From Neisseria sp. (GTDB lineage Bacteria > Pseudomonadota > Gammaproteobacteria > Burkholderiales > Neisseriaceae): a stretch of DNA of 38,698 nt. The stretch covers positions 1 to 38,698 of the forward strand of contig NZ_JAUMUI010000019.1 of NCBI RefSeq assembly GCF_030530745.1, in the 5' to 3' direction. Under the pieces are notes generated by a model, which was given only the letters and a program-made list of their open reading frames with translations, had not been told where the DNA came from and made no database searches. How positions within the stretch are numbered: the first letter of the stretch is position 1; each line of letters starts with the position of its first letter. Below are positions 2,606 to 21,446 of the stretch, in pieces. The position numbers and the translations under genes were made by a program.

Positions 2606-4251
2606 TGAGTAACGACAACAAACAACCCACCTACAGGCCTGTTCCGGCCGTGGTGCGTAAGACCAACGTATTTACTTCGGTTATCTGGCTGATTCCGCTG
2701 ATTGCCCTGATTACGGGAGGCTGGCTGCTGATGAAAGACATCCGCAACCGCGGACCGGAAATCACTTTGTTGATGGACAGTGCCGACGGAATCGAAGTGA
2801 ACAACACCGTGGTAAAAGTATTGAGCGTGGAGGTAGGGCGTGTAACCCGCATCCGCCTGCGCGGCGACCAAAAAGGCGTGGAAGTTACGGCCCGCCTAAC
2901 CGCCGATGCTAAAGACATGATGCGCAAAGACACCCAGTTTTGGGTAGTGAAGCCGCGTATCGATCAAAGCGGGATTTCCGGCCTCAACACACTGGTTTCG
3001 GGTTCGTATATCGCCTTTACGCCCGGCAAAAGCGAAGAAACCGAAGAGCGTTTCGAAGTGCTCGATATCCCTCCGATTACCGCCATCGGGCAAAACGGCC
3101 TGCGCCTGAAACTTATCGGCCTCAACGATAAAATGATAAATGCCGGCAGCCCCGTGCTGTATGAGGATTTCAGTGTGGGGGTGGTGGAGAGCGCCGAGTT
3201 TGACCCTAAAGACCAAACCGTTAACTATACTGTGTTCATTCAAAGCCCCAACGATAAACTGGTGGGGGAAAACAGCCGGTTTTGGCTGCAAAGCGGCATC
3301 AATATCGAAACCACCGGCAACGGTATACGCGTGGATTCCGCCCCTATCCCCGCCCTGCTTTCGGGTGCCATCTCATTTGCCTCGCCTACCGGCGGCGACA
3401 AAGGCAACTTTGCTGTTAATGGCGATACTTTCGAGCTTTACAACAACCGCAGCGAAGTCGACAACCTGCCGACCGAACGCTCCCTCTATTACACCGCCTT
3501 TTTCAAGCAAAGCGTGCGCGGCTTGGTGAGCGGTGCGCCCGTTGAATATAAAGGCATCAACATCGGCGCCGTGGCCGACGTACCTTATTTTGCCCAAAAC
3601 GACAGCCTCAAACTGTTTGAAAACGGCTGGATTCCCGTGCGTATCCGCATCGAGCCCGAACGCATGGAGCTTAATGCCGGCGCCCAAAGCCGCGAATATT
3701 GGCAAAACCAGTTTCAGACGGCCTTAAGCAAAGGCTTAACCGCCACCATTGCCAGCAACAACCTGTTAACCGGCAGTAAAATGATAGAGCTGGATGACAG
3801 GCCGTCTGAAAGCGCCAAGCTCAAACCGTTTGCCGACTATAACGGTAATGTTGTTATCGCCACCCGCGGCGGCGGCTTCGACGATTTGCAGGCGCAACTG
3901 GGCAGCCTGCTTGAAAAATTCAACAAACTGCCGCTGGAAAACACCGTGGGCGAATTGAACGGCTCGCTGCGCGAACTGAAGTCCTCCCTGAAGTCCGCCA
4001 ATGCCTTAATCAGCAAGCCGCTAACGCAGAACATTCCCTACGAGCTGAACCTAACCCTGCTCGAGCTGCGCCAAACCCTGCAAGGCGTGTCGCCGCAATC
4101 GCCGCTTTACGGCGACGTGCAGAGCACTTTGCAGAGCATCGATAAAACCCTGAAAGATGCGCAGCCCGTAATCAATACTTTGAAAGAAAAACCCAATTCG
4201 CTGATTTTCAACAGCAACACCAAAGATCCGATACCGAAAGGAAGCCACTGA
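2602..4251 (+). CDS. pqiB: PqiB-like MCE-domain protein
   Basis: Membrane-anchored periplasmic MCE protein of 549 residues, close to the length of Escherichia coli PqiB. A single membrane helix (about 23-44) is followed by three MCE repeats starting near residues 50, 165 and 295. Each carries the G-x-x-V-x-Y/K-x-x-V-x-V-G pattern, for example SPVLYEDFSVGVV and APVEYKGINIGAV. A C-terminal helical region (about 425-530) probably forms the coiled-coil needle known for PqiB. Family knowledge: stacked MCE hexameric rings form a hydrophobic tunnel between the membranes. It overlaps pqiA by 4 bases and pqiC by 1 base, so the three genes are surely cotranscribed. A second ATG at 2605 is possible as the start. 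Confidence 0.92.
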   Translation: MMSNDNKQPTYRPVPAVVRKTNVFTSVIWLIPLIALITGGWLLMKDIRNRGPEITLLMDSADGIEVNNTVVKVLSVEVGRVTRIRLRGDQKGVEVTARLTADAKDMMRKDTQFWVVKPRIDQSGISGLNTLVSGSYIAFTPGKSEETEERFEVLDIPPITAIGQNGLRLKLIGLNDKMINAGSPVLYEDFSVGVVESAEFDPKDQTVNYTVFIQSPNDKLVGENSRFWLQSGINIETTGNGIRVDSAPIPALLSGAISFASPTGGDKGNFAVNGDTFELYNNRSEVDNLPTERSLYYTAFFKQSVRGLVSGAPVEYKGINIGAVADVPYFAQNDSLKLFENGWIPVRIRIEPERMELNAGAQSREYWQNQFQTALSKGLTATIASNNLLTGSKMIELDDRPSESAKLKPFADYNGNVVIATRGGGFDDLQAQLGSLLEKFNKLPLENTVGELNGSLRELKSSLKSANALISKPLTQNIPYELNLTLLELRQTLQGVSPQSPLYGDVQSTLQSIDKTLKDAQPVINTLKEKPNSLIFNSNTKDPIPKGSH

Positions 4252-4835
4252 TGCGCAGATGGATAATGATAGGCGCACTGGCCGCTTTGGGCGCGTGCAG
4301 CACCCCTGCGACCCAATATTTCACGCTGCCCGACAGCCAATACAGCCACCCCGCCAAAAGCGGCAGCGAAATTGCCGTGCGTGTGTATCTGGCCGAGCCG
4401 CTCAATAACGGCGGGCTGGTTTATCAAACCGATGCCTACCATGTGAATTTTGCCCGCAGCCATTTATGGGCAGGCTCGCTGGATAATGCGCTGGCATCCG
4501 GTTTCAGTAATAAACTCAACCGCCTCGGCGGCCGCCATATCTTCGTGCCGGCAGCAAGAAGCAGCAGTACGCAAATACTGAAAATTTATGTGGAAGCATT
4601 TCAGGGCAGTTACCGGGGCAAAACATTGGTAAGCGGCTATGCCTTGTGGCCGAACGGACAAAGCCGCCCCTTCCATGTTGAAACACCACAAAACGGCGAC
4701 GGTTATGCAGCCATGGTCGAATCGTTGAATCAGGGCTTGGAAAAGGCGGCGGCGCCGTTTTATTTATTTATCCGTCCGAAGTTGTTAATGATTAGCCATG
4801 GCTGGAATGGCGGACTGAAAACGGAGTTACCTTAA
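4251..4835 (+). CDS. pqiC: PqiC-like outer-membrane lipoprotein
   Basis: Lipoprotein of 194 residues in the ABC-transport auxiliary lipoprotein family (PqiC/YmbA, formerly DUF330). A signal peptide ends in the lipobox L-G-A-C, making C16 the lipidated residue. The next residues (STPATQYFTLPD) match the family's short N-terminal block before a globular domain. PqiC is known to sit in the outer membrane and bind the tip of PqiB. Its ATG shares one base with the pqiB stop (TGATG). The C-terminal tail (about 175-194, SHGWNGGLKTELP) has no obvious family match and may be a divergent end. Confidence 0.85.
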   Translation: MRRWIMIGALAALGACSTPATQYFTLPDSQYSHPAKSGSEIAVRVYLAEPLNNGGLVYQTDAYHVNFARSHLWAGSLDNALASGFSNKLNRLGGRHIFVPAARSSSTQILKIYVEAFQGSYRGKTLVSGYALWPNGQSRPFHVETPQNGDGYAAMVESLNQGLEKAAAPFYLFIRPKLLMISHGWNGGLKTELP

Positions 4836-4908
4836 GAAACCTTATTTTTCAGACGGCCTGAGCGAGCTTTGAAAAGTTCTGAGCGGGTTGCTAAATTGAG
4901 TTTTCAAC

Positions 4909-4941
4909 AAAAGCAGGCAAGGTTTTACTTTGCCTGCTTTT
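4909..4941. terminator. Intrinsic terminator after pqiABC
   Basis: AAAAGCAGGCAA (4909-4920) and TTGCCTGCTTTT (4930-4941) form a perfect 12 bp stem with a 9-base loop. Flanking A and T runs let it work in both directions, fitting its place between the converging pqiC and M16 peptidase genes. Confidence 0.75.
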
Positions 4942-5154
4942 GTCATGAGAGACTTTTGAAAACCGGGAATCTCTATAACGACATGTTTTCAATGTTTCAA
5001 CACAGGACGACACATAAAGCGCCGCCCTACGTGTTGCCCTGATTGGGAAGGGGCTACACCCCTACCCGATAATCCAAATTCTACTGCCATAAATGGCGGG
5101 GTCTCAACCGAAAAGGAAACTTGATGAAAATATCGGGTTCACTGCCAAATAAGC
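4942..5154. other. Unassigned intergenic stretch with a G-rich hairpin
   Basis: No coding sequence is supported. It contains GGGAAGGGG (5045-5053) facing CCCCTACCC (5059-5067), a 9 bp stem with one mismatch and a 5-base loop, and a small GCCAT/ATGGC hairpin near 5090. Function unknown. Confidence 0.4.
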
Positions 5155-7902
5155 TCATGGCGCAGGGTCTACCAGCAGCACGCGTGCGTTCGGGGTATGC
5201 CACAGTAGTTTGGCGGTTTGGCGCAGGCGGGTTTGGATGATGGTCCGGTGCAGTTCGGGCAGGCGGCTGAGGTAGCGGGCATCACCGTAGCGGCGGTGGC
5301 TGGCCGCCAGTCGTTCCAGCCATATTTCGGGGTTTTGCTGCCGTTTGGCTTCCTGCTCGATAAACAGCTGTTGCAGATTCTCGGCTTCGGTTTTGCTGAT
5401 GTTTTCGGGCAGGCGCTCCAACACTTGCTGGGCGGTTTGCCATGCTTCGGCCGCTTGGGCGGGGGGCGTGCTGAAAAACAGGTTGCTTTCCACGCGGTTA
5501 TAAACCGGCTGCGGCAGGGCGGTGAATTTTACGCCGTAGGTGCTTTGGTTGCGGCTGCGCAGTTCGTCTTTCAGGCGGGCGTTGGCGAGGTTGACCAGCA
5601 GCGGAATCTGCTCGGAAGTATCGGGTGTCCAGTCGTAGAAAGGCTGCCAAGACCAAGCGTTGATGTCGGTGCCGCCGGTGTCGTTGATGGCGGCGCGGCG
5701 CAAAGTGGCGCCTGTTAAAAGTTCGGTCGGGCGGTTTTCGGCGGCGCGGCGCGGAATATCGGCCAGATATTGCACCAGCAGCGGTTTGATTTTTTCAGAC
5801 GGCATATTGCTGACAACATAATACGTTGCAGGGGCTGAGGCAAGTTGCCGCCATTGTTGCAGCAGATCGGTTTGGGTTAGTGCGCGGATTTCCCCGCTGT
5901 TTTGTGCACGGCTTTCGGGGCGGCCGTAGCGCAGCAGTTCCAATTCCTGCTCTTGCCGCCCAGGCACGGATTGCAGGTAAGCGGGGTGGCGCAGGGCGGC
6001 GGTTTCGAGCATGCTTTGCCAATGCTCGGCGGTGGGATCGGTTTGGCGGCTGCGGTAAAGCTGCAGCAGGGCTTCGAGTGTTTGCTGCGGCGCTTGGATA
6101 TCTGTGGTTTGGCGGTCGCTTTCAAGGCGGTAACGGTAAGCGATGCCTTGCTGTTGCTGCCATTGTTTGAACGATTGGCCGCTGAAGCCGGCGGGGGCGG
6201 AACGGGAAACCACATCGGCCGCCAACTGTGCCTGCCATGCTCCGAGGCCGTTTTGCCGGTAGCCGCCGTCGGCCACGGCTCTGAAATAGATTTTGCCGCC
6301 TGCCACGGCTTTTTGCAGCAGCACGGCTTTGTCGCCGTTGCTGAATTGCAGGTAGCTGACTTTATTATTGTTGTCGAAACCTTCCGACATCAGCCTGCCG
6401 TGCCCTTTGTGTTGCGGGAAAACGGTTGTTGCGCTTGCGGCCGATTGTGTAGGCGTTGCGGCGGTGCGCACGGTAACCCGGTCTTTTCCGGGCTTGTCGG
6501 GTTTGGGTTGGGCCGCCGCCGTAACGGAGCCCCCTGTTTTGTTGGCAAGGGTTAATGTGTGTTCGGGGGCTTGGATAATGGTGAGGCGGTCGGGTGCATT
6601 CAGCCATTCGGCGATGCGTTTGTTAACGGCGGCGGCACTGATGCGGTAAAGCTGGCCGCGCTCGACGGCCTGGTTGTCGGGCGTGGGTACGGGTTTGCCG
6701 GCCAACACGGTGTCGTCGGCCAGTTGCACGATTTGCGGTAAGTCGTCGGGAAGTGAGGGAGTGGTGCGCATATGGTTGTGCAGCACTTTGCGGTAGGCAG
6801 CGGTTTCTTCGTCGCCGGCGGGCTGCTGCCGGACGGCTTCGACGGTTTGGTGGAGCAGGTTGAGTGTTTCCTGCTGTGCATCTGCGGCGGCATCGGCATA
6901 AAAGCCCAGCGAACCGGTTTGTTTGCCGATGTTGCCGAGTTTGAAAGAGACGGGTTGCGCCATGCCTTGCAGGCGGCGGCTGATGGTGTGGGCGGCGAAG
7001 TTGTCCAGCAGGCGGTGGTAATACCCCGGGCTGCCGCTGCTTTGCGACGGGGCGTTATTGAAGCGGTAAATCAAGGCCAGTTTGGTTTCGGTGTTGTCTT
7101 TATCGTGTACGCGGGCAGTGCGCGGCATATCGGCGAGTTTGGGTTCGTATTCGCCTGCGGTGCGCTCGGGTAAGGTGGCGGGTTTTAGACGGCCCAAATG
7201 CTCTTCGATGGCGGCGGCGGTTTTTTTAGGGTTGATGTTGCCAACTATTACCAGCACGGCGTTATTGCTGCCGTACCATTTGTTGTGAAAGCGGTTGGCG
7301 GTGTCTGCCTGTGCGGTTTCGATGGCGGTTTTGCTGCCGATGGGTGCATAGCGTGCGCTGCGCGAACCGCTGTGCAGCAGGGCATGGTGTTGCCGGCTTA
7401 AGCGGTGTTGCAGGGTTTGTTGAGCGCGCCATTCGCCCAGCACCACTTGCTGTTCTTTGGCCCAATCGGCGGCGGAAAAGGTTTGCGGGGTGAGAATTTG
7501 CCGGTAAACGGCCAAGGCGTCTTTAAGCTGCCGCCTGCCGTAGGGCGGCGTGAGCATATAGCGGGTGTGGTGGTAGCCGGTTTGGGCGTTGTAGTGCCGC
7601 CCTATCTGCCAACCTTCGGCATTGAGGTAACTGCCCAAACCTTGCGGAAACGCGGGGGAGCTTTGGAACACCATGTGTTCGGTGATATGGGCGATACCTT
7701 CTTCGCCGTCGCCTTCATCGGCGGTGCCTGCGTTGATTTGCAGGCGCAGCACCAAGCGGCTGCCGGCGGAAGGCACTTTGAAAATATGGTATGCCAAGCC
7801 GTTGTCGAGCCTGCCTTCGATATATTCGGCCCGGCCTGCACACGCAGCGGCGGCGGTGAAAACAGCTGCGGCAAACAGCAGAAAACGCGAAAGTAAGAGC
7901 AT
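5155..7902 (-). CDS. M16 family zinc metallopeptidase (PqqL-like), exported
   Basis: Two-part M16 peptidase of about 915 residues, probably periplasmic. The zinc site is H-I-T-E-H (residues 72-76 from the chosen start) with the third ligand E157 in EQQVVLGEW, the inverted zincin arrangement typical of the active N-terminal M16 half. The C-terminal half (about 490-915) looks like the inactive partner that helps form the clam-shell chamber. I prefer ATG 7902 to ATG 7935 because it begins directly with a signal peptide (MLLLSRFLLFAAAVFTAAAACAG); neither has a strong ribosome site. An A-A-A-C sequence is a weak lipobox, so lipidation is possible but unlikely. It stands alone on the minus strand, converging on pqiABC. 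Substrate unknown. Confidence 0.88.
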   Translation of the reverse strand: MLLLSRFLLFAAAVFTAAAACAGRAEYIEGRLDNGLAYHIFKVPSAGSRLVLRLQINAGTADEGDGEEGIAHITEHMVFQSSPAFPQGLGSYLNAEGWQIGRHYNAQTGYHHTRYMLTPPYGRRQLKDALAVYRQILTPQTFSAADWAKEQQVVLGEWRAQQTLQHRLSRQHHALLHSGSRSARYAPIGSKTAIETAQADTANRFHNKWYGSNNAVLVIVGNINPKKTAAAIEEHLGRLKPATLPERTAGEYEPKLADMPRTARVHDKDNTETKLALIYRFNNAPSQSSGSPGYYHRLLDNFAAHTISRRLQGMAQPVSFKLGNIGKQTGSLGFYADAAADAQQETLNLLHQTVEAVRQQPAGDEETAAYRKVLHNHMRTTPSLPDDLPQIVQLADDTVLAGKPVPTPDNQAVERGQLYRISAAAVNKRIAEWLNAPDRLTIIQAPEHTLTLANKTGGSVTAAAQPKPDKPGKDRVTVRTAATPTQSAASATTVFPQHKGHGRLMSEGFDNNNKVSYLQFSNGDKAVLLQKAVAGGKIYFRAVADGGYRQNGLGAWQAQLAADVVSRSAPAGFSGQSFKQWQQQQGIAYRYRLESDRQTTDIQAPQQTLEALLQLYRSRQTDPTAEHWQSMLETAALRHPAYLQSVPGRQEQELELLRYGRPESRAQNSGEIRALTQTDLLQQWRQLASAPATYYVVSNMPSEKIKPLLVQYLADIPRRAAENRPTELLTGATLRRAAINDTGGTDINAWSWQPFYDWTPDTSEQIPLLVNLANARLKDELRSRNQSTYGVKFTALPQPVYNRVESNLFFSTPPAQAAEAWQTAQQVLERLPENISKTEAENLQQLFIEQEAKRQQNPEIWLERLAASHRRYGDARYLSRLPELHRTIIQTRLRQTAKLLWHTPNARVLLVDPAP

Positions 7903-15068: not shown

Positions 15069-16520
15069 ATGACCGCCTATACCCTCAAACAAGCCAGCGA
15101 ACTGCTTCAGTCCAAAAGAACCTCCGCCGTTGAGCTGGCGCAGGAATATCTGGCCGCCATCGATGCCAAAAACCCCGCCCTCAACGCCTACATCACCTTA
15201 GATAAAGAAAAAACCCTGGCCGAAGCCCGCGCCGCAGACGAGCGTATCGCGGCGGGACGGGGCAGCCTGCTCACGGGCGTGCCGATAGCGTATAAAGACA
15301 TTTTCTGCCAAACCGGCTGGCGCTCGGCCTGCTCGTCCAAAATGCTCGATAACTTCGTGTCGCCCTACACCGCCACCGTGGTGCAAAACCTGCTCAACGA
15401 AGGCATGGTTACCCTTGGCCGCGTCAACATGGACGAATTCGCCATGGGTTCAACCAATGAAACCTCCTTCTACGGTGCAACGAAAAACCCTTGGAATCCT
15501 GCACACGTTCCCGGCGGTTCTTCGGGCGGCTCCGCCGCCGTAGTAGCCGCCCGCCTTGCGCCCGCCGCACTCGGTTCGGACACGGGCGGCTCCATCCGCC
15601 AACCCGCCTCACACTGCGGCATCACCGGCATCAAACCCACTTACGGCACCGTGTCCCGTTTCGGCATGGTGGCTTATGCCTCCAGCTTCGACCAAGCCGG
15701 GCCGATGGCGCAAACCGCCGAAGACTGCGCCATTCTGCTCAACGCCATGGCAGGCTTTGACGAACGCGACTCCACCAGTTTGGAACGGGAAAAAGAAGAC
15801 TACGCCCGCGAATTGAACACCCCGCTCAAAGGCTTGAAAATCGGCCTGCCCAAAGAATACTTCGGCAGCGGCAACAGCGCCGGCGTTCAGGCAGTCCTGC
15901 AAAATGCCATAGACTTATTAACAGCCCAAGGCGCGGAAATGATTGAAGTTTCCCTGCCGCAAACCGAACTCTCCATTCCCGCCTATTACGTCCTCGCCTC
16001 CGCCGAAGCCAGCACCAACCTCTCCCGCTACGACGGCGTGCGCTACGGCCACCGCGCCGCCCAATTCGGCGATTTGGAAGAAATGTACGGCAACACCCGC
16101 GCCGAAGGCTTCGGCAGCGAAGTGAAACGCCGCATCATGATCGGCACTTATGTGCTGAGCCACGGCTATTACGACGCCTATTACCTGAAAGCGCAAAAAC
16201 TGCGCCGCCTGGTTGCCGATGATTTTCAGACGGCCTTCACGCAATGCGACGTGATACTCGCCCCCACCGCGCCGACCACCGCCCCCAAGCTCGGCAGCGA
16301 CATTCACGACCCGGTGCAAATGTATTTGAGCGATATCTACACCATCGCCGTCAACCTCGCCGGCCTGCCCGCATTGAGCCTGCCCGTAGGTTTCGGTTCA
16401 GACGGCCTGCCCGTCGGCGTGCAGCTTATCGGCAACTATTTTGCCGAAGCCAGGATTCTGGGCGCGGCGCACCAGATGCAGTTGAACAGTGATTGGCATA
16501 CGAAAACGCCCAAACTGTAA
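15069..16520 (+). CDS. gatA: Aspartyl/glutamyl-tRNA amidotransferase subunit A
   Basis: Amidase-signature subunit (483 residues) that releases ammonia from glutamine for transamidation. The Ser-cisSer-Lys triad is visible: K76 in [11 protein letters not shown]151 in [10 protein letters not shown] and S175 in [10 protein letters not shown]. The length is normal. DUS copies lie inside the gene near 16224 and 16397. Its stop is followed by a junction rich in DUS-like sequences and then the restriction-modification cassette, so gatA and gatB are separated by about 3.5 kb. Confidence 0.97.
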
Positions 16521-16522
16521 TG

Positions 16523-16533
16523 GCAGTCTGAAA
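16523..16533. repeat. Left copy of cassette-flanking direct repeat
   Basis: GCAGTCTGAAA occurs here and again, identically and in the same orientation, at 19191-19201, bracketing vsr, the methyltransferase and the endonuclease. It is one base off the DUS core (GCCGTCTGAA), so it may be a mutated uptake sequence that served as a recombination end. A normal DUS follows at about 16535-16546. Confidence 0.5.
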
Positions 16534-16552
16534 AAGGCCGTCTGAAAAAAAT

Positions 16553-16567
16553 TTCAGGCAGCCTGAA
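16553..16567. repeat. Foreign-dialect DUS at cassette left edge
   Basis: TTCAGGCAGCCTGAA is a quasi-palindrome. Read forward, 16556-16567 is AGGCAGCCTGAA, the Kingella-type DUS dialect; read on the minus strand, 16553-16564 is AGGCTGCCTGAA, the Simonsiella-type dialect. It sits 9 bases before the vsr start. The resident dialect elsewhere is AGGCCGTCTGAA. Confidence 0.65.
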
Positions 16568-16575
16568 AACCCGAT

Positions 16576-17016
16576 ATGGATAGATTAAACCCCGAACAAC
16601 GCCGAAAATGTATGCAGGCCAACAAAAGCAAAGGCACAAAACCCGAGCTTTTACTGGCAAAAGCCATGTGGCATCTCGGTCTGCGTTACCGGAAAAACAG
16701 CAAAACCGTATTCGGCAAACCCGATTTCAGTTTTAAAAGGCATAAAATCGCCGTGTTTGTAGACGGCGAATTCTGGCACGGTAAAGATTGGGCAATACGC
16801 AAGGCCGATATTAAAACTAACCGCGAATTTTGGACGGCTAAAATCGAACGCAATATGCGGCGGGATGAGGAAGTTACAGGCCGTCTGAAAAATGAAGGAT
16901 GGAGGGTCTTTCGCTTCTGGGGAGAAGATGTGGCGAAAAATCCGCAGATGTTTGCCGGAAAAATACAGGAAGCAGTTTATGAAAAGTTATCCAACAACAG
17001 CAACGAATCAGAATGA
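16576..17016 (+). CDS. vsr: Very short patch repair endonuclease (Vsr)
   Basis: Vsr nicks next to T:G mismatches produced by deamination of 5-methylcytosine and so protects sites modified by the adjacent methyltransferase. The 146-residue protein has E24 in TKPELLL, the catalytic D50 in FGKPDF, and the D63/H68 block FVDGEFWHGKDW. Compared with E. coli Vsr, the zinc-binding Cys residues around this block (CFWHxHxC) and the later W-E-C are replaced (E65, K70-D71, GED), so the structural zinc site seems absent. The end overlaps the methyltransferase start by 38 bases. An AG-dialect DUS is at 16878-16889 inside the gene. The ribosome site is weak. Confidence 0.9.
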   Translation: MDRLNPEQRRKCMQANKSKGTKPELLLAKAMWHLGLRYRKNSKTVFGKPDFSFKRHKIAVFVDGEFWHGKDWAIRKADIKTNREFWTAKIERNMRRDEEVTGRLKNEGWRVFRFWGEDVAKNPQMFAGKIQEAVYEKLSNNSNESE

Positions 17017-18073
17017 AAACAAGCTGAAAGAACGGGCAGCACAATATCAACTGTTTGAGAACGGTTCAGTCTTTCAGCCTGCTGTACACAAGAAGAAATT
17101 TACCTTTATCGACCTTTTTGCAGGCATCGGCGGTTTCCGTATTGCCATGCAGAATTTGGGCGGAGAGTGTGTCTTTTCCAGCGAATGGGACGAAAAAGCC
17201 AAGCAGACTTACGAAGCCAATTTCGGCGAAGTTCCTTACGGCGACATTACCAAAGAAGAAACCAAAAAATTTATTCCGAAACAGTTTGATATTCTTTGTG
17301 CGGGTTTTCCGTGTCAGGCATTTTCCATTGCCGGTAGACGCGGCGGTTTTGAAGATACACGCGGTACACTGTTTTTTGATGTGGCCGAGATTATACGCCG
17401 CCACCGCCCGAAAGCATTCTTTTTAGAAAACGTCAAAGGTCTGACCAATCACGACAAAGGGCGTACGCTGCAAACCATTTTGCACACCTTGCGTGAAGAT
17501 TTGGATTATTTCGTTCCTGAGCCGGAGATTGTGAATGCAAAAGATTTCGGTGTACCTCAAAACCGTGAACGGATTTTTATTGTCGGATTTAGGAAAGATT
17601 TGGGGGTGGAAAGTTTCAAATATCCGGAACCGTTTGATTTTCAGACGGCCTTTATAGACATTAGGGAAAAAGAAACCGTTCCGACAAAATATTATCTGTC
17701 CACACAATATATCGACACATTACGCAAGCATAAAGAACGCCATGAAAACAAAGGCAACGGTTTCGGCTATGAAATTATTGCCGATAACGGCATTGCCAAT
17801 GCAATCGTGGTAGGCGGTATGGGCAGGGAACGAAACCTTATTATCGATAAACGGATTACCGACTTTACTCCGACCACCAACATCAAAGGAGAGGTAAACC
17901 GCGAAGGTATCCGTAAAATGACACCGAGAGAGTGGGCACGGCTGCAAGGGTTTCCGGAAGATTACAAGATTGTGGTTGCCGATGCTTCCGCATACAAACA
18001 GTTTGGTAATTCGGTGGCAGTACCTGCAGTTCAGGCGACAGCAGAGCAGATTATAAGAAAATTAATGGAGTAG
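16979..18073 (+). CDS. DNA (cytosine-5)-methyltransferase, probably M.HpaII-type (CCGG)
   Basis: C5-cytosine methyltransferase of 364 residues. Motif I is FIDLFAGIGGFRIAM (43-57), motif IV has G-F-P-C-Q with catalytic C112, motif VI is E150-N151-V152, motif VIII is QNRERIF (195-201), motif IX is around 311-326 and motif X is QFGNSVAVP (341-349). The target-recognition region spans about 215-310. CCGG specificity is inferred from the adjacent HpaII-like endonuclease, not read from the sequence. I chose ATG 16979 over an upstream frame opening at 16892 because AGGA lies 8 bases before it and the longer frame overlaps vsr with no family match. An AG-dialect DUS is at 17640-17651. The endonuclease follows 3 bases after the stop. 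Confidence 0.93.
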   Translation: MKSYPTTATNQNENKLKERAAQYQLFENGSVFQPAVHKKKFTFIDLFAGIGGFRIAMQNLGGECVFSSEWDEKAKQTYEANFGEVPYGDITKEETKKFIPKQFDILCAGFPCQAFSIAGRRGGFEDTRGTLFFDVAEIIRRHRPKAFFLENVKGLTNHDKGRTLQTILHTLREDLDYFVPEPEIVNAKDFGVPQNRERIFIVGFRKDLGVESFKYPEPFDFQTAFIDIREKETVPTKYYLSTQYIDTLRKHKERHENKGNGFGYEIIADNGIANAIVVGGMGRERNLIIDKRITDFTPTTNIKGEVNREGIRKMTPREWARLQGFPEDYKIVVADASAYKQFGNSVAVPAVQATAEQIIRKLME

Positions 18074-18076
18074 AAC

Positions 18077-19177
18077 ATGTCAGAAGTCTTTTCAGGCAAC
18101 AAAGGCGAATGGAGCGAACCGTACGTTTTATTAAAGCTCTTGGCCGACGGGAAACTGTATTTGGGTGATGGCAACCTTAACAAACTTGAAAGCTTAATGT
18201 TGCCGATTATCAGTATTTTGCGTGAGGAACAGGACGGTGCGAGAAGATATTCTTATTCGGACGATAAATCGAGGATTGTGTTCGATTTCGGAACAGCAGA
18301 CGAATTATTGGCCGTTCCCGTTGATGAGTTTGAAAAACATGCCCTGCTTTTACTGTCAGCCATCAAAGAAAACCGTACTTCATCTTTCACCGTACCCGAT
18401 GTTGAAGAATTTTTAAGAAAAATAGGATGTACCCGCCTTAGTGCAAGATCTTTATCGAAAAGCGATATACATATTGTTGTTCATGATATTCGGACAGGAA
18501 TATGCCCTACGCTCGGTTTCAGCATCAAATCCGAACTTGGCAAAAAAGCCACTTTGCTGAATGCCAGCGGCGCAACCAACTTTCTTTACGAGGTTCAAGG
18601 ATGTGATAACCGGATTGCAGATGAATTTAACAGTCTGTTCAACAACAGGGGAAAAAAGGATTTCCGCCGCAGGATGGCCTTGCTCGAAAATACAGGCTGT
18701 TTCCTTGTGTTTCAAAAAGTAGATCACAGTATTTGTTCCAACAACCTGATTCTGATTGACAGCAGGCTGCCTGAAATTCTGGCAGAAATGCTGTGTCAAT
18801 ATTATGCAGGCCGTGCAAAAAACACATCTGATTTATCTGCAAAACTTTGTGGCATCAATCCCAACGGCTACGATTATTCCAACAACCACCATTTTTACGA
18901 ATACAAGGTAAAACGCCTGCTTTGCGAAGCTGCCTTGGGAATGCGTCCTGCCGAAATATGGCACGGCAAATATGATGCCACGGGAGGCTATTTGGTCGTG
19001 CGCCAAGACGGTGAAATTGTCTGCTATCACTTATACAGCCATAATCAGTTTGAAGACTATCTTTTCCGGAATACAAAGTTTGACACACCCAGCTCTTCCA
19101 GACACGGTTTCGGTGATATTGTTCAAGAAGAAGGCAGATTTTTCCTCAAACTGAATCTGCAAATCCGGTTTAGTTGA
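18077..19177 (+). CDS. HpaII-family type II restriction endonuclease
   Basis: Predicted restriction enzyme of 366 residues, near the length of HpaII (about 358), which cuts unmethylated CCGG. The opening NKGEWSEPYVLLKLLADGKLY matches my recollection of the HpaII family N-terminus. A likely nuclease centre is D130...F148-S-I-K151 (KSDIHIV...LGFSIKSELG), as in several restriction enzymes, followed by a conserved-looking LLNASGATNF. GGAG lies 6 bases before the ATG. It is AT-rich: the 60 bases at 18421-18480 are 37 percent GC, against 75 percent at 15541-15600 in gatA. It contains an exact Simonsiella-dialect DUS. Family assignment is from memory and should be confirmed by search. Confidence 0.82.
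   Translation: MSEVFSGNKGEWSEPYVLLKLLADGKLYLGDGNLNKLESLMLPIISILREEQDGARRYSYSDDKSRIVFDFGTADELLAVPVDEFEKHALLLLSAIKENRTSSFTVPDVEEFLRKIGCTRLSARSLSKSDIHIVVHDIRTGICPTLGFSIKSELGKKATLLNASGATNFLYEVQGCDNRIADEFNSLFNNRGKKDFRRRMALLENTGCFLVFQKVDHSICSNNLILIDSRLPEILAEMLCQYYAGRAKNTSDLSAKLCGINPNGYDYSNNHHFYEYKVKRLLCEAALGMRPAEIWHGKYDATGGYLVVRQDGEIVCYHLYSHNQFEDYLFRNTKFDTPSSSRHGFGDIVQEEGRFFLKLNLQIRFS
18764..18775 (+). repeat. Simonsiella-type DUS inside the endonuclease gene
   Basis: AGGCTGCCTGAA is an exact copy of the AG-simDUS dialect and differs from the resident AGGCCGTCTGAA at two positions. It encodes part of SRLPEI. A specific 12-mer is expected only about 0.005 times by chance in a window this size, counting both strands. 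Confidence 0.65.
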
Positions 19178-19190
19178 AAATTAAAAAAGC

Positions 19191-19217
19191 GCAGTCTGAA
19201 AGTTTTTCAGACGGCCT
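19191..19217. repeat. Right copy of flanking repeat plus DUS hairpin
   Basis: GCAGTCTGAAA (19191-19201) repeats the sequence at 16523-16533. GTCTGAAA (19194-19201) also pairs with TTTCAGAC (19205-19212), the start of a normal reverse-strand DUS, giving an 8 bp hairpin that may terminate the restriction cassette transcript. Confidence 0.5.
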
Positions 19218-19240
19218 TAAATCGGTGAAAGGAGTAAGCA

Positions 19241-19414
19241 ATGACCAAACGCGAAGAATTGTTGGAACAGCAACGGCGGCTTCATGTCGTGTTTGAGGCA
19301 TGGATGAACGATAAAAAGCAGCGTGAAATATTGACTTTTGAGCGTGAAAACGGCGACATCGTCCGCCATCACCCTGACGGCAGGGAAGAAATCATTGTTT
19401 ATGGAAAACAATAA
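19241..19414 (+). CDS. 57-residue protein, candidate antitoxin of the zeta-type kinase
   Basis: Short gene with ATG at 19241, a good ribosome site (AAAGGAG, about 7 bases upstream) and a stop at 19412-19414. The protein runs from an amphipathic, charged N-terminal half (REELLEQQRRLHVVFEAW, DKKQREI) to a C-terminal half with alternating residues and two turns (TFERENGDIVRHHPDGREEIIVYG) that looks like a beta hairpin. It overlaps the zeta-like kinase gene by 14 bases, so translation is probably coupled. Position, size and overlap suggest an antitoxin, but it does not resemble the three-helix epsilon antitoxin of Gram-positive plasmids. The function is inferred from context only; a regulatory role is also possible. 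Confidence 0.7.
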   Translation: MTKREELLEQQRRLHVVFEAWMNDKKQREILTFERENGDIVRHHPDGREEIIVYGKQ

Positions 19415-20003
19415 TCTGGCCATTTTCTATTGCGGCACCAACGGCGCAGGCAAATCCACCCTGCGTAGCCTGAACAGCGATGCGGTGCAAGTGGTGATTG
19501 ATTCTGACCACATCGCGCAGGAAATAAATCCGCACAATCCGCGCTTAGCGGATATTCGAGCAGGTAGAAAGGCCGTGGCTTTGTTTGACTTTGCCATTGA
19601 AAACCGCATTTCTTTTTCGATGGAATCGACGCTGTCCGGCCGCTCGGTTTTGCAGCGGATCAAAACCGCCAAACACAATGGTTTTTGCGTACGTTTGAAC
19701 TATGTCGGCGTAAACAATGTACGCATCAACATCGAACGCGTTGCCGCCCGTGTGAAAATCGGCGGCCATTTTATCGATGAGGCAAGCATACGGCGGCGTT
19801 ATCAAAGCAGTGCCGAACACCTTTTGCAAGCCGTGCCGCTGTGCGATGACGTTTTTGTCTACGACAATTCGGGCGAACATGTGCAACTGGTTTTTTGGAT
19901 TAACCAACGTGAAATAAACCTGATGAGTAATAAGCTGCCTGAATGGTGCCGCAGCTTGCAAACGCAATTGCAGCAATTGGATTATCATACCGTTTCATTT
20001 TAA
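19401..20003 (+). CDS. Zeta-toxin-like P-loop kinase (COG4185-type)
   Basis: P-loop protein of 200 residues. Walker A is GTNGAGKST (12-20), followed by strand-end VVIDSD (31-36), where zeta toxins carry catalytic Asp residues, then FSMESTLSG, and a basic helix ERVAARVKIGGHFIDEASIRRRY (124-147 region) with Arg residues likely to contact ATP phosphates. Known zeta toxins phosphorylate UDP-N-acetylglucosamine and block cell-wall synthesis; whether this branch does so is unproven. ATG 19401 is preferred over an upstream opening at 19338 because the P-loop strand follows at once. It overlaps the 57-residue gene and ends 12 bases before gatB. AAGCTGCCTGAA at 19932-19943 is one base off the Simonsiella DUS. 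Confidence 0.8.
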   Translation: MENNNLAIFYCGTNGAGKSTLRSLNSDAVQVVIDSDHIAQEINPHNPRLADIRAGRKAVALFDFAIENRISFSMESTLSGRSVLQRIKTAKHNGFCVRLNYVGVNNVRINIERVAARVKIGGHFIDEASIRRRYQSSAEHLLQAVPLCDDVFVYDNSGEHVQLVFWINQREINLMSNKLPEWCRSLQTQLQQLDYHTVSF

Positions 20004-20015
20004 GAAAGACCCCCT

Positions 20016-21446
20016 ATGACCTGGGAAACCGTAATCGGACTGGAAATCCACGTCCAACTGAACACCAAATCGAAAATTTTCAGCGGCGCGTCCACCGCCT
20101 TCGGTGCGGAGCCGAACGCGCATGCGAGTGTGGTGGAGTGCGCGCTGCCGGGCGTATTGCCTGTGATGAACCGCGAAGTGGTTGAAAAAGCGATTAAACT
20201 GGGTTTGGCCTTGGATGCCGAAATCAATCAGAAAAACGTGTTCGACCGCAAAAACTATTTCTATCCCGACCTGCCCAAAGGCTATCAAATCAGCCAGTTG
20301 GATTTGCCGATTGTGGAACACGGCAAGCTGGAAATTGTGGTGGGTGATGAGGTGAAAACCATCAACGTTACCCGCGCGCATATGGAAGAGGATGCGGGCA
20401 AATCGGTGCATGAGGGCTTGAACGGCGCAACGGGTATCGATTTGAACCGTGCGGGCACGCCGCTGTTGGAAGTGGTGTCCGAACCCGAGTTGCGCTCTGC
20501 CGCCGAGGCGGTGGCCTATGCCAAAGCGCTGCACGGCCTGGTTACCTGGCTGGACATTTGCGACGGCAATATGGCCGAGGGATCGTTCCGTATTGATGCC
20601 AATGTGTCGGTGCGCCCGAAGGGGCAGGCTGAATTCGGCACGCGCCGAGAAATCAAAAACCTGAATTCGTTCCGTTTTTTGGAACAGGCGGTTAATTACG
20701 AGGTGGAGGCACAAATCGAAATTCTGGAAGACGGCGGCAAAGTGCAGCAGGCGACCATGCTGTTCGATCCCGACAAGGGCGAAACCCGTGTGATGCGCCT
20801 GAAAGAAGATGCGCACGACTACCGCTATTTCCCCGACCCCGACCTGTTGCCCGTAATCATTTCAGACGGCCAATTGCAGGCAGCCAAAGCGGCCATGCCC
20901 GAATTGCCGAAAGAAATGGCCGCGCGCTTCGTGGCCGAATACGGCGTGAGCGGCTACGATGCCCGCTTGCTGACCGCCACCCGTGCCCAAGCCGCGTTTT
21001 TCGAGCAGGCTGCGCAACAAAGCGGGCAGGGCAAATTAACCGCCAACTGGATGAACGGCGAGCTGGCGGCCACCTTGAACAAAGAAGGTTTAAGCCTGTC
21101 TGAAAGCCCGATTCAAGCCGACCGCTTGGCCGGTTTGGTGGCGAAAATCGCCGACGGCACCTTGAGCAGCAAACTGGCCAAACAGGTATTCGAAGCGATG
21201 TGGGGCAGCGATTTGAACGCCGAAGCCATTATCGAACGCGACGGCCTGAAACAGATGACCGACACCGGAGCCATCGAGAAAATCATCGATGAAGTGCTGG
21301 CCGACAACGCCAAGTCGGTGGAAGAATACAAAGCGGGCAAAGAAAAAGCGTTTAACGCATTGGTCGGCCAGGTGATGAAAGCCAGCAAAGGCAAGGCCAA
21401 CCCGCAGCAGGTGCAGGAATTGATGAAGGCGAAATTGGCCGGCTAA
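20016..21446 (+). CDS. gatB: Aspartyl/glutamyl-tRNA amidotransferase subunit B
   Basis: Subunit of 476 residues that binds the misacylated tRNA and carries the kinase/transamidase centre. The opening [22 protein letters not shown], the [18 protein letters not shown] block and the [10 protein letters not shown] motif are all diagnostic, and the C-terminal YqeY-like tail ends in [16 protein letters not shown]. The length is normal. It starts 12 bases after the zeta-like gene, so its transcription may now come partly from within the inserted region. Confidence 0.97.

Follow-up and report, generated by a model that had tools for sequence, protein, structure and literature searches.

The 38,698-bp stretch studied here (the window) is contig C15 of the 2.28-Mb genome of a Neisseria sp., which is assembled in 53 contigs and called G000 below. 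It contains a block of five genes between gatA and gatB, two subunit genes of one enzyme. The gatA-gatB gap is 3495 bp long and all five genes inside it are on the plus strand: vsr, a C5-cytosine methyltransferase gene (M), a restriction endonuclease gene (R), an open reading frame (ORF) of 57 amino acids (aa) and a zeta-toxin-like gene (Table 1). The first-pass annotation of this DNA had described a restriction-modification cassette of low GC content between gatA and gatB, and profile searches confirmed the vsr, M and R families and their position; the end that it had set at 19240 was too early, the block instead reaching gatB and including the last two genes. Integrase and transposase families were absent from the five block genes in Pfam and NCBIfam profile scans. 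The GC content was 45% in vsr, 44.5% in M and 43% in R versus 59% in gatA and 56% in gatB, and at third positions 44-48% in vsr, M and R versus 71-72% in gatA and gatB. When the window is divided into 2.6-kb stretches, the five with the lowest GC begin at 16,501-16,901, and the local values reported earlier, 36.7% at 18421-18480 and 75% at 15541-15600, were correct but represent extremes, each over 60 bp.

Table 1. Features of the gatA-gatB locus, with positions in the window.
Feature	Position	Strand	Evidence
gatA, left conserved flank	15069..16520	+	TIGR00132 603.5 bits, cut-off 481.1
Native AG-DUS AGGCCGTCTGAA, between gatA and dyad	16535..16546	+	
Overlapping simDUS(-)/kingDUS(+) dyad TTCAGGCAGCCTGAA	16553..16567	.	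15-mer
vsr, very-short-patch mismatch endonuclease, 146 aa	16576..17016	+	TIGR00632 E 1.7e-48, 163.8 bits, cut-off 97.85
AG-DUS within vsr	16878..16889	+	
C5-cytosine methyltransferase (M), chimeric by informative sites	16979..18073	+	PF00145 E 4.3e-105
AG-DUS within M	17640..17651	-	
HpaII-family type II restriction endonuclease (R), 366 aa	18077..19177	+	PF09561 E 5.6e-128, profile 1-359/359
simDUS AGGCTGCCTGAA within R	18764..18775	+	
AG-DUS between R and 57-aa gene, in terminator-like inverted repeat (by eye)	19206..19217	-	
57-aa ORF, candidate antitoxin partner	19241..19414	+	
Zeta-toxin-like kinase gene	19401..20003	+	PF06414 E 2e-9
gatB, right conserved flank	20016..21446	+	TIGR00133 557.2 bits, cut-off 314.8

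Vsr matched structure 1cw0 (E 1.9e-14) and M matched M.HhaI structures (E about 1e-78). In the M translation the catalytic motifs PCQ, ENV and QNRER of C5-methyltransferases were read by eye. The mechanically called ORF of M begins at the first ATG at 16892; the start at 16979, which is preceded by AGGAAG, is likelier and makes M overlap the end of vsr by 38 bp. With this overlap and a spacer of just 3 bases between the stop of M and the start of R, vsr-M-R probably forms one operon. R is full-length for the HpaII family and also matched PADLOC REase_II (E 2.5e-115), whereas a sequence search of the PDB with R gave no match below E 0.12. From the families, R would cut a CCGG-type site, M would protect the same site and Vsr would repair the T:G mismatches left by deaminated methylcytosines; we infer the CCGG specificity and the activity of the system from the sequence in this way.

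The window contained 41 copies of AGGCCGTCTGAA, the uptake sequence (DUS) of the AG-DUS Neisseria, and one AT-DUS; the AG-DUS occurred 2134 times genome-wide. Against this dominant dialect, the AGGCWGCCTGAA 12-mers were found in the window only at 16553(-), 16556(+) and 18764(+), that is as a king/simDUS dyad at the left edge and an exact simDUS in R, in agreement with the foreign-dialect marks described earlier. None was present in 100 dinucleotide shuffles of the window, which rules out a chance origin. The 15-mer is an overlapping king/simDUS dyad of a type known from Simonsiella, S. muelleri having 1294 such pairs (Frye et al., PMC3630211, where the AG-DUS species are also enumerated), and from a 2020 study which recognised elements imported into Neisseria by king/sim dyads (PMC7371117). 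In our family set of 84 genomes, one per species, dyad copies numbered 201-2067 in 12 genomes and 0-63 in the other 72, with 11 in G000. The AGGCWGCCTGAA 12-mers of G000 were 46 at 35 places, 11 of which are overlapping dyads, and the reversed-pattern control gave 0. They are not restricted to the cassette, 33 additional places being found in the genome, and this part of what the first-pass annotation named as speaking against its donor was indeed observed. The density of AG-DUS in the block was close to native, with 4 in 3.5 kb (1.14/kb) versus 0.94/kb genome-wide.

A gatB match was present in 82 other family genomes; the region upstream of it was taken from 60 of these and left out for 22, and of the resulting 61 loci (window included) 8 were dropped as no gatA 3' end was found within the fetched stretch. 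In the 53 that remained gatA and gatB were adjacent conserved flanks with a measurable gap of 45-5750 bp (median 1113). Once overlapping ORFs had been discarded, these gaps held 117 that were 50 aa or longer, and these fell into 50 clusters. Restriction, methylation or nuclease genes were present in 18 of the 53 gaps, with adenine methyltransferase pairs (D12 + N6/N4) in 8, DpnI/dam-replacing genes in 7 and EcoRII pieces in 1; a DUF535 gene was found in 15, and 3 gaps were without any ORF of at least 50 aa. Ten gaps contained king/simDUS 12-mers, 4 of them in dyad-rich hosts. Across the family, gatA-gatB is a cassette site whose content varies strongly from species to species. Literature searches gave no report of it as a cassette or hotspot site in Neisseria, the original 2007 catalogue of minimal mobile elements and most subscription papers lying outside their reach; among the papers that mention gatB together with Neisseria, PMC12748263 is a phylogeny. 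The gaps of G021, an AG-DUS genome (L055), and of G003 (L050) had 4 and 7 eikDUS 12-mers, respectively, and 746 bp in common at 86% identity, possibly another cross-dialect case at this junction.

The two genes next to gatB would form a second module, a putative toxin-antitoxin pair that is found in other species without vsr-M-R. The 57-aa ORF had no family match in Pfam, NCBIfam or PADLOC; the zeta-like gene had none in NCBIfam or PADLOC, and its single match to the PDB by sequence was at E 0.076. One or both genes were present in 6 of the 53 gaps, the 57-aa gene lying upstream of the zeta gene in all 5 gaps that contained it. The 807-bp gap of G009, in the order gatA-57aa-zeta-gatB and with no further ORF of at least 50 aa, holds this pair alone and shows the site without restriction genes.

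Homologous cassettes were located at the same site in two AG-DUS congeners, G025 and G051. Vsr had matches (E <= 1e-20) in 14 of the 84 family genomes; the closest besides its own were in G025 (86%) and G051 (84%), both at gatA-gatB, followed by matches of 69-76% in nine further congeners and three weaker ones of 38-50%. The AG-DUS within vsr is at the same position in G025 and not in G051. R was detected in 6 genomes of the set, namely G000, G025, G053, G064, G065 and G046; the copy in G025 is a remnant of 49 residues (318-366) with 86% identity at gatA-gatB, and the copies in the last four are 35-37% identical, the one in G046 being split into two parts, of which the shorter has 43% identity. 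M was 62% identical to its counterpart at gatA-gatB in G051, and reached 77-81% in G013, G046 and G053, where M lies outside gatA-gatB and next to a vsr. The G025 gap (L072, 5750 bp) contains two tandem cassettes, and between them lie remnants in the order gatB'-gatA', the gatB start being followed by the gatA end (by eye) and a king/sim dyad. The first of these cassettes comprises vsr, an HNH gene, the R remnant and zeta-like remnants, and the second a histidine phosphatase, two adenine methyltransferases and a MutH-like endonuclease.

Starting at its left edge and up to approximately 17,220, the block was mostly nearest to G051, after which M was nearest to G046, G013 and G053; the G051 cassette continues with the N and C domains of EcoRII where G000 has the HpaII-type endonuclease. 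Among the 405 sites informative between G051 and G046, the ratio of G051-like to G046-like sites was 139:37 up to the break and 53:176 beyond it (Fisher p 5e-30, a value which overstates the certainty since it was taken at the best-fitting break). The best break position was 17,230, 17,210 and 17,225 against G046, G013 and G053, respectively, a range within 20 bp, and the same split was seen in all three comparisons; in the left part, a single stretch of 100 nt (gap positions 300-400) was even against G046 and G013. On the pattern of these sites M is a chimera with a break near 17,210-17,230. The mosaic cassette proposed by the first-pass annotation is borne out by this breakpoint test, and both identifiable parts are from Neisseria. 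The chimeric M beside an exchanged endonuclease suggests that restriction specificity has been reassembled in place.

Taken as a whole, we consider it probable that gatA-gatB is a cassette port, that vsr-M-R came to it last from an AG-DUS Neisseria and that the king/sim marks date from an earlier stay elsewhere. At such a port, gene blocks would be swapped by homologous recombination in gatA and gatB following natural transformation, the housekeeping flanks supplying the homology and the DUS favouring uptake. The vsr-M-R block would have arrived from another AG-DUS Neisseria, and the last donor was most likely a relative of that dialect, judging from AG-DUS congeners that have the closest vsr and the R remnant at gatA-gatB, and from the native AG-DUS density. 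Both the dyad and the simDUS within R would be peregrine marks of a stay, or of recombination, in a king/sim-dialect species, and hint at an older passage of this kind.

Several observations weigh against this interpretation. The nearest M genes (77-81%) are at loci other than gatA-gatB. Identity in sliding windows along gatA against relatives rose and fell with no clear recombination edge, and no recombination junction was pinned down in gatA or gatB. Transposase genes in 2 of the 53 gaps (L040 and L056) indicate that other routes act at gatA-gatB too. The variation was seen between species with one genome each, whereas minimal mobile elements are defined among strains within a species. The sequence evidence for a king/sim passage consists of 12-mers, and C/G-centred dyads, which are one step from the AG-DUS, made up 7 of the first 100 listed among 141 AGGCNNCCTGAA matches. 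These TTCAGGC(C/G)GCCTGAA dyads are located in G000 at C11:2325, C11:3770, C21:5574, C27:80, C28:16157, C36:10306 and C38:18438.

The C/G-centred dyads also favour an origin in place, in which mutation or gene conversion turned AG-DUS-like sequence into the dyad and the simDUS; these two would then carry no donor information. The occurrence of the 46 12-mers at as many as 35 places, several of them inside core genes (valS, gcvP, carB and alaS, ORFs by eye), points the same way. Such an origin nevertheless needs two changes from the AG-DUS, and the places are clustered: 15 of the 35 have a neighbour within 3.5 kb versus a mean of 3.4 under uniform placement, and only 1 of 2000 uniform placements, contig ends ignored, reached 15. 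Besides the window cassette, clusters lie at pheS-pheT and at a type III restriction locus on C47; two more, on C17 and C41, were not recognised as defence or mobile loci, which again fits an origin in place. A cas4-like gene and an N6/N4 methyltransferase gene on C7 contain further single copies. The dyad TTCAGGCAGCCTGAA also stands at the same position before vsr in G051, again behind an AG-DUS, which speaks against an origin in place. We regard such an origin as unlikely.

We give somewhat less credence still to the transfer of the whole cassette directly from a Simonsiella/Kingella-like species with later gain of AG-DUS. A donor of this type, put forward for the cassette in the first-pass annotation, would explain why an exact dyad stands at the left edge and a simDUS within R; three dyad-rich genomes have a dyad near the gatA end of the gap (at position 17 in L075 and L077 and position 6 in L073), and the second G025 cassette opens with a gatA remnant followed by a dyad. 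Yet no close relative of vsr, M or R was found in the 12 dyad-rich genomes searched: R was present in 2 (36-37%), M (E <= 1e-40) in 6 with at most 52%, and Vsr (E <= 1e-20) in 1 with 50%. In the two genomes with R (g8 in our labelling), M and R are fused in one protein, and the M tree, from which two rows had been removed as second copies of genes already included, places their M in a different supported clade. The native AG-DUS density of the block is a further argument against it. None of these 12 genomes is therefore a plausible direct donor, and a recent Simonsiella/Kingella donor was rejected; an unsampled king/sim-dialect strain is a possible source, as each species was represented by one genome. 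The first-pass annotation had named closest relatives of all three genes in AG-DUS Neisseria, at the same locus in all species, as evidence against such a donor, and this was found for vsr (G025, G051) and R (G025), whereas the closest relatives of M are elsewhere and not all species are involved. Vertical descent of an ancestral locus lost in most species could explain why 3 of the 53 gaps contain vsr, but is very improbable given the widely varying gap contents among congeners, the chimeric M and the different endonuclease companions (HpaII here, EcoRII in G051).

The pheS-pheT junction of G000 (L112, C16:47000-63000, about 4200-7000; pheS by Pfam, pheT by eye) also holds a king/simDUS-tagged cassette, in which a short dam-type methyltransferase gene is overlapped at its end by a DpnI/dam-replacing gene and which also includes a nucleotidyltransferase and its partner. 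Both pheT (by eye) and pheS contain additional copies of simDUS and kingDUS. By comparison of coordinates by hand, the DpnI-like gene matched the gatA-gatB gaps of at least 7 other genomes at 70-78% DNA identity and the dam-type gene those of at least 8 at 72-75%, so that both junctions hold related cassettes; these genes matched other places in other genomes as well. In the minimal mobile element model, as presented in PMC3082526 (citing Saunders and Snyder 2002; Snyder et al. 2007), exchange takes place by homologous recombination in conserved flanks. By analogy gatA-gatB would behave like a site of this already known kind, as pheS-pheT is known to do.

We tentatively suggest, while holding the opposite to be somewhat likelier, that subunit-gene junctions such as gatA-gatB and pheS-pheT are family-wide ports which share one pool of restriction and toxin-antitoxin cassettes. 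These cassettes would cross DUS dialects, gain the DUS of the host and keep peregrine dyads as a record of their travel, and specificity would be reshuffled inside M and by exchange of EcoRII- and HpaII-type endonucleases. The DUS dialects have been proposed to limit DNA exchange between species, and cassettes with several dialects at one small site make the frequency and order of crossings of this barrier testable. For genome annotation, gatA-gatB may be flagged as a place for defence genes in Neisseriaceae.

King/sim dyads were noticed at other loci of G000, G025 and G051; L128-L132 were examined by eye only. In G000, the type III restriction subunit gene of L114 (C47:61500-68500) has two dyads, and near it are an N6/N4 methyltransferase and, by eye, a transposase-like ORF. 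L128 (C1:101000-108500 of G025, an AG-DUS genome) has three dyads in what by eye appears to be the tail region of a Mu-type prophage. G051 has five dyads with mirror-image spacing at C1:1328343-1337234 and C1:1478051-1486943, which looks like an inverted duplicate, and the ORFs of the former resemble a two-partner secretion locus (by eye).

Known systems share different parts of this arrangement. HpaII-type systems (PF09561) have a full-length R with M directly upstream, as in the Halothermothrix (M 71%, R 47% identity) and Porphyromonas (M 71%, R 40%) loci outside the family, a contig scan with R giving 3 loci, the best at 47%; class-wide, relatives of R at 36-38% were found in 3 of 369 genomes besides G000. 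They differ in that vsr heads the operon here, the same search finding none in the Halothermothrix and Porphyromonas loci, and in that M is chimeric and R is only 33-35% identical to the R adjoining M in G046 and G053. Islands with king/simDUS dyads such as ICEriNK (PMC7371117) likewise have peregrine dyads in a canonical-DUS host and low GC, whereas the present block is 3.5 kb long with no integrase or conjugation genes, a native AG-DUS density and no matching donor found. The minimal mobile elements of Neisseria, as described in PMC3082526, share two conserved flanking genes, differing whole-gene cassettes that include restriction genes, and the lack of a mobility gene in the block; the differences here lie between species of the family and at gatA-gatB, a junction for which no literature link was found. 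NmeDI of N. meningitidis is, according to PMC7973814, a Vsr-containing type II system with a CCGG-containing target which is likewise located between two subunit genes of one enzyme, although at another locus, pheS-pheT.

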